IMG/VR virus record: IMGVR_UViG_3300010354_000774
Span: 1 to 21,978 of that record
DNA length: 21,978 nt
Strand: one strand, 5' to 3'
From: a virus
Each line of letters opens with the position of its first letter. The stretch's first letter is position 1. Below the pieces are notes generated by a model, which saw nothing but the letters and a program-made list of their open reading frames with translations, was not told where the DNA came from and searched no databases. Shown here in pieces: positions 9,128-17,912 of this stretch. Both the position numbers and the translations under genes were made by a program.

Positions 9128-9152
9128 TTGCGCGGATTAAACAACTGCGCAA
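9128..9152 (-). repeat. Conserved-loop hairpin, copy 1
   Basis: A perfect 6-bp stem TTGCGC / GCGCAA encloses a 13-nt loop that reads AGTTGTTTAATCC on the minus strand. It begins directly after the TAA stop of the replication-initiator-like gene. Closely related loops occur at 13533-13553, 15771-15785, 17254-17266 and on the plus strand at 17617-17637. There is no T-run after it, so it would be a weak terminator at most. Confidence 0.65.
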
Positions 9153-13532: not shown

Positions 13533-13553
13533 GGCGGATTAAACAACTGCGCC
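13533..13553 (-). repeat. Conserved-loop hairpin, copy 2
   Basis: On the minus strand GGCG-CAGTTGTTTAATC-CGCC has the 13-nt loop family sequence closed by a different stem from copy 1. It overlaps the stop codon of the small membrane protein (13553-13555). A partly overlapping palindrome, CCGCAATTTGCGG at 13522-13534, could form an alternative hairpin that excludes it. The next gene's ribosome site lies further downstream. Confidence 0.65.
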
Positions 13554-13923: not shown

Positions 13924-14937
13924 TTACAAAAGAGCCAAGATTTTATTCTTGAATCTATCGCCACTTCCATTAACAATACGTTCGGCACGTGCCATGTCAG
14001 CGTCCTTTGAGCGAACTGGCTTTGCCCAATCGGAATACTCCACAAACGTGTTGTAAGCCGCCCACTTAGTATTCTTAATGTTGGCTTGTGTTGGTGCGTT
14101 CCATAAGCCCATTAGCGCGCCACGTGCTTGTGTAGCCATAGTAATGGCACGTGGTGATTCTTCCTTTGGGTCAAGTGGCACTACATACTCAACTAACTTG
14201 GCGAACTCTTTGTCCGTCATTGATTGGTTAAGTAATGTTTCCGCTTCTTTCTCAAATTCAGCCGAATACTTAAATGTAACTTTAAGTGCTTCACGTGCCG
14301 CTTGAATCTTGCCGCCAGCGGAAGGTGTATGGCGAATTGAGTATTTAGATTTAGCCGCGCGTAGTGCCGCCGTTAATGTGTTCTGACATACAACGCGGAT
14401 TGGCGTAACACAAACACTAAATGATGATGAGCCATCATGTGTGTTCCATGCCATCAAATACATATCAATGGCATCCACGCCACCAATTTGTAATCCTTCG
14501 GGCATTTTCATAGTCATAAACACTTTACGACCATTATCAATTGAGCCAGCCGTTTCAAAAACTGCGCCTGATTCGTCAGCCACATAATTAAGAAACGAAA
14601 ACGCTTCCGCGTTCTGAACTGGCGTGTAACGATTACCAACCACGCCAAGTGCTTCCGCTACGCCAGTTTTTGGGTGACGGCGATAAGTAATGAATCTATC
14701 GCTGTGCGTAACTTCTTCCATTGAACCTTGTTCCATTGCTGAATCGCCCAACATTGGAATCATGGTTGAAACTGGGTTTTCTGATTTGATTACGTCCCAG
14801 TTTAGATAAGCGGTTTTAAGTGCTTCTTCCGCTGTTAGTGCGCCTTCTGTAACTGTGCCGAGTTTGTGCCACGCTACTTCTCGCGCGGTGAAGAAAGCGG
14901 TTGTGCCATCTTCAAACTCCTCTAGTCTGTGTGCCAT
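13924..14937 (-). CDS. DUF932 / TIGR03299-type phage protein
   Basis: This 337-residue protein has the recurring features of the DUF932 phage/plasmid family. It opens with MAHRLEEFEDGTTAFFTARE and VAWHKLGT, continues with ALGVVGNRYTPVQNAEAFSF (about 96-115), and has a central SFSVCVTPIRVVCQNTLTAA near 178-197. The C-terminal half is helical with ITMATQARGALMGLWNAPTQ and a final SGDRFKNKI. Members are common on phages and plasmids, and their function is not established. The ATG overlaps the upstream stop (TAATG), with GAAAGGA about ten bases before it. It is the largest product of this part of the early operon and is followed by a terminator. Confidence 0.9.
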   Translation of the reverse strand: MAHRLEEFEDGTTAFFTAREVAWHKLGTVTEGALTAEEALKTAYLNWDVIKSENPVSTMIPMLGDSAMEQGSMEEVTHSDRFITYRRHPKTGVAEALGVVGNRYTPVQNAEAFSFLNYVADESGAVFETAGSIDNGRKVFMTMKMPEGLQIGGVDAIDMYLMAWNTHDGSSSFSVCVTPIRVVCQNTLTAALRAAKSKYSIRHTPSAGGKIQAAREALKVTFKYSAEFEKEAETLLNQSMTDKEFAKLVEYVVPLDPKEESPRAITMATQARGALMGLWNAPTQANIKNTKWAAYNTFVEYSDWAKPVRSKDADMARAERIVNGSGDRFKNKILALL

Positions 14938-15224: not shown

Positions 15225-15697
15225 TATTCTGCCTCCACGTTATCTACTTGGTAATCGTCATCTTCTGTGCCATCGTGTTCCAAATTGTTGCTTACTTCAT
15301 AACTAATGGCGTCAAGAATTTGGCGCTCGGCATCTTCTTCACTATCTGCCTCAACGCCTGTAATAGTAAATGTAATGGTTACATTTGCTGAGTAAGTGAA
15401 TTTGAGTTCTTGTGCGCCAATACGATTGAGTAAATCGTTAATGTCGTCCACGTCCATTTCAACTGTGGCGTTTTTGTCGCCATCTACTTCATCTTTGAAA
15501 TATTCACGAACGGTGTTGCGTAGATTGCCAATCTCGGCACTTGCTTTCCAATATCTATCGGTGTATGACTCCTTAGATTCCTTTAGAGAATCTACTTGCG
15601 CCAATAGTTTGTCAATCTCAACCAATAACGCCTCGCCTTGTAGAGTGTTAATTAGTTGTTCTGCTTTTTCACGTGTTGTTACTGTATTTGTTTCCAT
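15224..15697 (-). CDS. Acidic coiled-coil hypothetical protein downstream of a ribozyme
   Basis: This 157-residue protein has an N-terminal coiled coil (LLVEIDKLLAQVDSLKESKE), a middle region (ATVEMDVDDINDLLNRIGAQ) and a strand-rich segment (FTYSANVTITFTITGVEADS), then a very acidic tail. It is the first gene after the hammerhead sequence at 15724-15809: cleavage would leave a 5' leader of about 55 nt. AAAGGACAGG lies before the ATG. The function is unknown; the acidity suggests a protein- or DNA-mimic role, which is speculation. Confidence 0.75.
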   Translation of the reverse strand: METNTVTTREKAEQLINTLQGEALLVEIDKLLAQVDSLKESKESYTDRYWKASAEIGNLRNTVREYFKDEVDGDKNATVEMDVDDINDLLNRIGAQELKFTYSANVTITFTITGVEADSEEDAERQILDAISYEVSNNLEHDGTEDDDYQVDNVEAE

Positions 15698-15723
15698 TTG
15701 CCTGTCCTTTGTTTGTGCTGATG

Positions 15724-15809
15724 AGCCTCATCAGTAGTGGCATTTACCACTAGACGTGCCAAATATGTGCGTTGCTTAAACAATTGCGCATATTTGGCAC
15801 GTTTCGGCT
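15724..15809 (-). ncRNA. Type II hammerhead ribozyme, copy 1
   Basis: Read on the minus strand the order is: AGCC (5' half of stem II), GAAA (15805-15802), stem III of 16 pairs with one C-A mismatch (15801-15786 with 15770-15755), then GUC (15755-15753). Stem I follows as TAGTGG / CCACTA with loop TAAATG (15752-15735), then CTGATGA (15734-15728) and GGCT (15727-15724), which pairs with AGCC. All invariant hammerhead residues are present, including A15.1-U16.1. Cleavage is predicted after C17 at 15753. The element starts at the stop codon of the small zinc-ribbon gene. The loop of stem III carries the conserved AATTGTTTAAGC motif. Confidence 0.9.
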
Positions 15810-16586: not shown

Positions 16587-16844
16587 TTATGCCGCCTTTC
16601 GTGTTTTGATTACTTTGCCATTAGCGTCACGCTTGCCAGCCACAATGTCATCAATAAAATCAATGAAATAGTCGGCGTCAAAATTGCTATTTGCTTCTTT
16701 GGCTACTTGGCAGAAACCTTGAATTGCCTGAGTTGTGCCTAGTAGTTGTTGTGCTTTTTGGTCCACGTCCCAATCGCTGTTACAGATTGTTTGGCGAACT
16801 TGTGCGAACTTAATTGCCATTGCTATGAAGTGCTTCTTAGTCAT
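16587..16844 (-). CDS. First gene of the early operon; hypothetical protein
   Basis: The 85-residue product starts MTKKHFIAMAIKFAQVRQTI and includes WDVDQKAQQLLGTTQAIQGF and ADYFIDFIDDIVAGKRDANG, a mainly helical fold with a basic tail. AAAAGGG lies before the ATG. Hammerhead copy 2 lies upstream: cleavage would leave a leader of about 60 nt ahead of this start codon. It is the first leftward gene after the control region. Not recognised. Confidence 0.75.
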   Translation of the reverse strand: MTKKHFIAMAIKFAQVRQTICNSDWDVDQKAQQLLGTTQAIQGFCQVAKEANSNFDADYFIDFIDDIVAGKRDANGKVIKTRKAA

Positions 16845-16868
16845 TTGTTTATCCCTTTTGTTTGGCTG

Positions 16869-16938
16869 TCCTCGTCAGTAGTGGCGCGCCAATTAATGCC
16901 ACTAGACCGCGCGACTTTTAGTGCCGCGCGGTTTCGGA
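16869..16938 (-). ncRNA. Type II hammerhead ribozyme, copy 2
   Basis: On the minus strand: TCC (5' half of stem II), GAAA (16935-16932), a perfect 7-bp stem III CCGCGCG / CGCGCGG with an 11-nt loop (16931-16907), GUC (16907-16905), a perfect 7-bp stem I TAGTGGC / GCCACTA with a 12-nt loop (16904-16879), CTGACGA (16878-16872) and GGA (16871-16869), which pairs with TCC. The A15.1-U16.1 pair is kept. Cleavage is predicted after C17 at 16905. Stem II has only three clear pairs. The first six pairs of stem I match copy 1, while stem III differs completely. Confidence 0.9.
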
Positions 16939-17274: not shown

Positions 17275-17442
17275 AATTCTTGCCTTCTCTATGTCAATAA
17301 ATGCCAAGAGTTGCCGTCACAGAGGTGCCGTCCCGTAGGAAGTCTTTCGCGGATTCTTTCACCGATTCTTGGTCATTTATTTAGTTGTCAATGTGCTTGC
17401 GAGATTCTTACTGGTCTGCGGTCAAGTTGAGAACGGATTCTC
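17275..17442. repeat. Recurring GATTCTT motif in a gene-poor stretch
   Basis: GATTCTT or a one-base variant occurs at 17275-17281 (AATTCTT), 17352-17358, 17364-17370, 17403-17409 and 17436-17442 (GATTCTC). All are in the same orientation. No gene is visible between 17274 and 17496. The sites could bind a regulator or initiator. Hairpin GAGAA-CGGA-TTCTC at 17429-17442 includes the last one. Confidence 0.4.
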
Positions 17443-17616
17443 GGCGCTTTTTGGGCGGTAAGACGTTCGCTGACTTTCAGAATTCGCTATTTAGTTATGA
17501 GGACAGCCTATCACATAAAGCCTGACGCTACTTTTAACGCGTTATTTCAGACGTTACTTAAAAACCACTTATGCCAACAAAATACGCGCCAAATAATGTG
17601 GCGCACACGCCAAATG

Positions 17617-17637
17617 GGCGCAGTTGTTCAATCCGCC
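17617..17637 (+). repeat. Conserved-loop hairpin, copy 5, on the plus strand
   Basis: GGCG-CAGTTGTTCAATC-CGCC has the same stem as copy 2 and a loop differing by one base, but on the opposite strand. It lies upstream of the two plus-strand genes, so its orientation again follows the local transcription direction. Between 17586 and 17604, GCGCCA / TGGCGC makes another hairpin just ahead. Confidence 0.6.
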
Positions 17638-17687: not shown

Positions 17688-17912
17688 ATGGCTGCCAATA
17701 AATCCAACTACACGCACATTGAAATACGGTGCGGTGGATTAGTTGTGCAATTAGGAACAGAAACCGAATATCCTGATTTAGTAGATGATTTAGCAAATCG
17801 CGCCGTAAATGTATTCAAGGAAACTATGGCGCACGCAAAAGAAAACGGCATTGACGTGTCAGATATGCGCCTAATTACCTCCGATTATGGAGATGACGAA
17901 GAAGAAGAATAA
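17688..17912 (+). CDS. Small acidic hypothetical protein on the plus strand
   Basis: From ATG 17688 the 74-residue product reads like a folded domain: MAANKSNYTHIEIRCGGLVV, then QLGTETEYPDLVDDLANRAV and a helix NVFKETMAHAKENGIDVSDM, and ends with an acidic tail (YGDDEEEE). The frame is open to ATG 17571, but those extra residues look non-coding and overlap hairpins. There is no ribosome site, and the start is seven bases after a TACAAT box, so it may be leaderless. It is one of two genes opposite to all others, in the position where phages often place a regulator. No HTH is visible and I do not recognise it. Confidence 0.7.
   Translation: MAANKSNYTHIEIRCGGLVVQLGTETEYPDLVDDLANRAVNVFKETMAHAKENGIDVSDMRLITSDYGDDEEEE

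Follow-up and report, generated by a model that had tools for sequence, protein, structure and literature searches.

Hammerhead ribozymes occur in phage genomes, and one such motif stands at the head of a leftward gene cluster in the 22-kb virus record of a lake-type phage. The window analyzed here is the whole stretch of 21,978 nucleotides (positions 1 to 21,978 of IMG/VR record IMGVR_UViG_3300010354_000774), and its relatives are all uncultured contigs. Cleavage in vitro and in E. coli has been reported for type II hammerheads situated between genes of phages (PMC3088659), and the role of prokaryotic (bacterial and phage) hammerheads is still described as open (PMC6155905).

We read positions 16938 to 16869 of the minus strand in the 5′ to 3′ direction and obtained a complete type II hammerhead, designated copy 2. 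Stem II is formed by UCC (16938–16936) and GGA (16871–16869), and the core by GAA (16935–16933, within GAAA at 16935–16932) and CUGACGA (16878–16872). Stem I consists of seven pairs between UAGUGGC (16904–16898) and GCCACUA (16885–16879). Stem III (16932–16923 with 16915–16906) is closed by loop III, ACUAAAA (16922–16916). The 7-bp stem I, the GUC triplet, CUGACGA, and the GGA:UCC pairing can be read directly from the minus strand, as described in the initial annotation. The perfect stem III noted there was also found, with a length of 10 bp including the A15.1-U16.1 pair, not 7 bp. Hammerhead cleavage chemistry is well established, and its application to this motif places the predicted cleavage site, GUC^U, at 16905/16904. 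Cleavage would leave a 2′,3′-cyclic phosphate on 16905 and a 5′-OH on 16904. The predicted cut lies 60 nt before the first ATG of the operon at 16844, which agrees with the distance given earlier.

An all-family Rfam scan detected copy 2 as the sole match anywhere in the window. The Hammerhead_II model (RF02276) matched 16939–16860 over the full model (1–66) with 35.0 bits (E = 8.1e-4 against 4227 Rfam families and 1.9e-7 with the Hammerhead_II model alone). This score is 2 bits below the Rfam gathering score of 37, which is a curation cut-off and not a structural criterion; orthologues at the same position scored 38.4, 42.4, and 43.7 bits with this model. The MFE structure of the copy 2 piece was the hammerhead fold (MFE z = −2.85). 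A strict descriptor identified two motifs in the window, copy 2 and another hammerhead designated copy 1, and gave no match in 300 simulated windows. GAAA precedes stem III, UC (16906–16905) provides the UH at the cleavage site, and CUGACGA, which fits CUGANGA, precedes stem II. Stems I and III are closed by loops and stem II is open, as indicated by the full-model coverage and the fold. By every sequence and structure criterion tested, copy 2 is a type II hammerhead, at the position where the initial annotation had placed one.

Loop I of copy 2 can also pair with the tail downstream of stem II, a feature absent from the initial annotation. This pseudoknot (16862–16892, minus strand) joins UUGGC (16892–16888) to GCCAA (16866–16862), and the pairing is kept with changed sequence in relatives (UUGGC:GCCAA, UAGGC:GCCUA, and GUGGC:GCCAU). 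With at least 4 pairs as the threshold, 4–7 bp are possible in all 31 distinct ribozymes. The pairing is exactly 5 bp in 23 of these copies, compared with 5 expected from shuffled tails. A loop I–tail pseudoknot is present in most natural type II hammerheads, in which it speeds cleavage (PMC3088659), and the pseudoknot of copy 2 occupies the same place.

Further relatives were gathered using homologues of the next gene and the upstream region, and every leader-bearing relative found carried a hammerhead at the equivalent position. Covariation was counted over 12 orthologous rows, in which copy 2 is compared with 11 distinct orthologues. Double compensatory changes were found in 7 of 8 pairs of stem I and 7 of 11 pairs of stem III, with no broken pair in either stem. 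No change was found in stem II or loop III, and within the core only N7 varied. ACUAAAA was identical in 12/12 rows of the leader-first set, and is thus fixed in all leader-first copy 2 orthologues although stem III changes. The window-type stem I pattern was found in 28 contigs of IMG/VR. Stem I is UAACUAUUU/GAAUAGUUA, with an AUA triplet, in L051, L054, L056, and L059, UUACUAC/GUAGUAA in L061, and UUACCG/CGGUAA in L066. The first six pairs of stem I are the same in the two hammerheads of the window and their stems III differ, as noted previously. The shared pairs are no general constraint, as other phages use unrelated stems I here. The alignment proposed in the initial annotation thus bears out its view that the fold is under selection, because compensatory changes occur in related phages. 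The score below the Rfam gathering value would suit a chance or decayed motif without activity. This is highly improbable in view of the compensatory changes in stems I and III and the pseudoknot across 31 distinct copies, the 300 simulated windows without a descriptor match, and the scores of 38–44 bits reached by same-position orthologues.

In one orthologous group the core is followed by an additional U before stem II begins (CUGAUGA-U-GGA), which might slow the ribozyme (L072, L074, L076, L078, L079, L081, L086, L095–L098, L101, L102, L108, L109, and L113).

The approximately 350 nt preceding the ribozyme are non-coding. We compared this region between the window and six relatives (L008, L009, L051, L054, L056, and L059); the leader was 83–96% identical, versus 55–72% for the coding sequence of the first gene. 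More distant relatives (L061, L064–L066, and L069–L121) shared only sequence blocks, and the architecture was the same. RNAalifold analysis of 26 divergent homologues yielded one multi-helix RNA, a candidate structured non-coding leader RNA at 17294–16969 of the minus strand. It is closed over about 300 nt by helix P1 (AAGGC 17286–17282 with GCCUU 16973–16969). P1 was 93% paired, and all five pairs covaried across this distance, with variants including AAGGC/GCCUU, GGGAU/AUCCC, and AUGGA/UCCAU. Over the whole structure, 91.1% of cells were paired and two-sided changes were found in 39 of 65 pairs, compared with 30–37% and 11–20 pairs in controls whose partners were shifted by 1–3 columns; the helices were counted on the same alignment from which they were read. 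G-U cells outnumbered A-C cells (70 vs 48), which is only a mild sign of the strand. The linker from P1 to stem II varied in sequence and length.

A coding function of the leader was rejected, as no stop-free frame was present on either strand in the 26 homologues. ARAGORN detected no tRNA or tmRNA gene in the window. Outside the hammerheads, nine records (the window, L059, L065, L066, L079, L091, L111, L113, and L116) showed no Rfam match to the leader up to an E-value of 1, including GOLLD and ROOL; an sR2 match in L113 was taken as chance. In a set of 50,697 phage records, neither the locus (near BLAST) nor the ribozyme and leader (distant BLAST) had a meaningful match. In our view, the leader is therefore a candidate for a new family of large structured RNAs of phages, on account of its covarying structure, the lack of an open frame, tRNA, tmRNA, or Rfam match, and its absence from the 50,697 phage records at distant-BLAST sensitivity. 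GOLLD and ROOL are long, ornate, conserved non-coding RNAs, largely from phage and lake sequence. The leader is like them a long conserved phage RNA, but its class is shorter (approximately 330–400 nt) and matches neither Rfam family. To our knowledge, a 3′-end hammerhead is not a feature of GOLLD or ROOL. The leader motif GAAGGACCCAATGGCGAA matched 12 sites in GTDB genomes, none with the ribozyme signature, and these were taken as chance. Promoter and terminator scans showed no excess over shuffled sequences, and no convincing promoter was located. DNA signals such as a replication origin or promoters could partly account for the conservation of the leader.

The connection between leader and ribozyme was evaluated using leader-pattern searches, which were blind to the ribozyme. 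These searches identified L006, L008, L009, L011, L051, L054, L056, L059, L061, L062, L064, L065, and L066, and in all of them a hammerhead directly followed the leader. Pattern matches in L050, L052, L053, L055, L057, L058, L060, and L063 fell within coding sequence and were disregarded. When the ribozyme signature (TCCGAAAY...CACTAAAAG) served as the query, many more contigs were identified in which a leader of this kind precedes the motif. The linkage rests on the leader-first searches, because most later matches were found with the ribozyme itself. Since the leader-first contigs all carry the hammerhead and the signature matches are preceded by the leader, copy 2 and the leader RNA form one unit. 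Judged from these contig sequences, the arrangement of leader RNA, ribozyme, and first gene is kept by dozens of related phages.

Downstream of the ribozyme, AAAGGG (16858–16853, minus strand) is the likely Shine-Dalgarno sequence of the first gene and is found at the same position in relatives. The gene (16587–16844, minus strand) encodes an 85-aa protein with no PHROG match, and its homologues follow the leader and ribozyme in L008, L009, L051, L054, L056, and L059. The leftward gene run includes a RecT-like annealing protein, an exonuclease, and replication genes, and the operon is presumably early, from its gene content and position. Terminase homologues in isolates were at most 51% identical. 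Isolate homologues of a 337-aa PHROG_1221 protein (13924–14937) were at most 46% identical among the matches listed, and were mostly from actinobacteriophages. An actinobacterial host is only a guess because of these low identities. Distant homologues of the 85-aa protein were also present in L033–L047, larger phage contigs of up to 317 kb in which the descriptor detected no hammerhead nearby.

It is fairly probable that the ribozyme is a processing site between the approximately 330-nt structured RNA (17294–16969) and the leftward operon. Because the hammerhead sits where the leader RNA meets the first gene, it probably frees a non-coding RNA and makes the start of the early mRNA. The ribozyme would fold, and cut at 16905/16904, as soon as transcription has proceeded beyond the tail (16862). 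Upstream of the cut, the folded leader RNA would be released, its defined 3′ end made by the stem III hairpin and bearing a 2′,3′-cyclic phosphate. Downstream, the product would be the early mRNA with a 5′-OH and the stem I hairpin at its extreme 5′ end, followed by the Shine-Dalgarno sequence 46 nt and the first ATG 60 nt after the cut. The sequences show the motif and its compensated conservation, the structured nature of the upstream RNA, and the constant association of the two; we infer that leader and operon are transcribed as one RNA, that cleavage takes place in the cell, and that the freed leader RNA is itself functional. A broader interpretation, to which we give about an even chance, is that an undescribed class of large structured RNA (approximately 330–400 nt) heads the early operon of this uncultured lineage. 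The dedicated type II hammerhead would be its built-in 3′ maturation element, and a single cut would produce the early mRNA and, at the same time, a free phage RNA that acts in trans.

Copy 1 (15718–15809, minus strand), which the initial annotation had also recognized, is located about 1.15 kb downstream of copy 2, and a syntenic relative with changed stems is present in L059. It has stem II AGCC/GGCU, a long stem III, a stem I beginning with UAGUGG, and the core CUGAUGA. Its predicted cut at 15753/15752 lies 55 nt before the ATG at 15697. The tail UCAUCAG (15724–15718) is complementary to its own core, and the hairpin CUGAUGA-ggc-UCAUCAG (15734–15718) is part of the MFE fold. In loci L002–L116, 56 distinct ribozymes of the copy 1 type were found between genes. 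The next ATG was 46–63 nt away in 53 of the 55 measurable cases (median 54). The intercistronic ribozymes make up the whole spacer, since in 50 of 56 the preceding gene has its stop codon in or next to stem II. A tail antisense to the ribozyme's own core CUGANGA, with 6–7 pairs possible, was present in 30 of 56 compared with about 1.5 expected, and the free core base N7 matched the tail in 24 of 25 (17 U-A and 7 C-G). This tail could plausibly lock the core after cleavage or act as a timing element or switch, and it suggests how these ribozymes could avoid re-ligation or be timed. The copy 1 type thus forms a second class, mostly without the loop I pseudoknot, and copy 2 has no antisense tail; copy 2 may rely on the pseudoknot in its place.

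The two-ribozyme layout at the head of the leftward cluster recurs in more than 20 related contigs. A post-transcriptional programme of early genes was suggested in the initial annotation. That suggestion treated the ribozyme only as a 5′-UTR device and was incomplete, as the ribozyme is also the 3′ border of an RNA of approximately 330 nt. Because this structured RNA is more conserved than the gene behind it, its release is no less likely to be the purpose than the programming of early mRNA.

The spacing of the copy 1 type is also evidence for another explanation, in which the ribozyme would only trim the early mRNA, and the 5′-OH and stem I hairpin would stabilize and insulate it. The upstream region would then be promoter and leader, and the downstream copies would act alike for later genes. 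The tightly fixed distance from cut to ATG in the non-leader ribozymes (46–63 nt in 53/55, median 54) and the stop codon overlapped or abutted by the 5′ strand of stem II (50/56) agree with such a device. We consider it unlikely, however, as the approximately 330-nt covarying upstream RNA, more conserved than the gene, would remain unexplained, and there would be no reason for the invariant loop III and constant leader attachment of this copy alone.

A DNA control element with foldback symmetry (a replication origin, promoter cluster, or operators) that the ribozyme follows by chance is a rather improbable explanation of the upstream region. The region separates a rightward gene (about 17689–17912) from the leftward operon, the repeats TATCTGTTACAACTT are present, and the phage has a replication-initiation-like gene. 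This explanation is weakened because the compensated helices, such as P1, span 300 nt, which is typical of RNA, and the ribozyme and the leader helices share one strand. Slightly less probable still is an allosteric switch, in which the leader would sense a ligand, a protein, or its own folding state and gate the ribozyme and expression of the early operon. The large conserved RNA does adjoin the ribozyme, and the invariant loop III could be a docking site; the ribozyme, however, folds alone at MFE with its own pseudoknot, and the linker from P1 to stem II is variable in sequence and length. A processing site between leader RNA and operon remains our preferred interpretation.

The basic idea is not new, because multiple operon hammerheads and one heading an early phage transcript are described in PMC3088659. 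RF02276 as presented there is similar to copy 2 in the open stem II, core, GUC, loop I–tail pseudoknot, phage genome, and proximity to a start codon. Unlike those examples, copy 2 forms the 3′ boundary of a large structured RNA and has the invariant loop III ACUAAAA, and some orthologues here have the AUA triplet and others the extra U at stem II. The same text describes a halovirus early transcript that starts within 3 nt of the hammerhead cleavage site. This HHphage ribozyme of HF1/HF2 likewise immediately precedes the first ORF of an early polycistronic transcript whose 5′ end was mapped near the cut, but it belongs to archaeal viruses, has a variant core, and is 13 nt from the start codon (PMC3088659). 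A structured upstream RNA such as that of copy 2 is not reported for HHphage in the part of PMC3088659 available to us. Clustered prophage hammerheads (A. tumefaciens ardA, C. scindens, and Azorhizobium) resemble the present set in that several occur per phage transcript, flanking genes; they cleave in vitro, and the A. tumefaciens set also in E. coli, as stated in the same paper. In contrast to the clusters described there, the ribozymes studied here have a near-constant ATG spacing, a stop codon over stem II, and arrays of up to five in 8.3 kb (L005).

As far as the databases and literature examined show, the new features are a large structured RNA with a dedicated 3′ hammerhead and the two tail classes. 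The locus offers a concrete, testable role for hammerheads in one lineage, in which the ribozyme stands where a conserved structured RNA gives way to the first early gene. Sister ribozymes are placed at the boundaries of genes, with a nearly constant distance to the next start codon, and the leader RNA, with its strong covariation, may represent a new family of large phage RNAs.

The window contains a 22-nt inverted repeat between the tail (16859–16880) and 17492–17513. Its role as an anti-ribozyme strand was rejected, as the complementarity is lost in L032. The upstream arm holds a 10-nt perfect complement, GGCUGUCCUC, of GAGGACAGCC in the ribozyme, on the same strand, which L032 lacks. A hairpin motif, GCGCARUUGUUNA, occurs four times in the window compared with 0.04 expected, at intergenic or 5′-UTR positions (9138–9150, 13540–13552, and 15777–15789 on the minus strand and 17618–17630 on the plus strand). 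It is also found in the stem III loop of copy 1, and after copy 2 in L008, L009, and L011. L005 (8.3 kb) and a 14.6-kb stretch of L015 each carry five type II hammerheads, with a single ribozyme ahead of each of several genes at a near-constant distance to the ATG.
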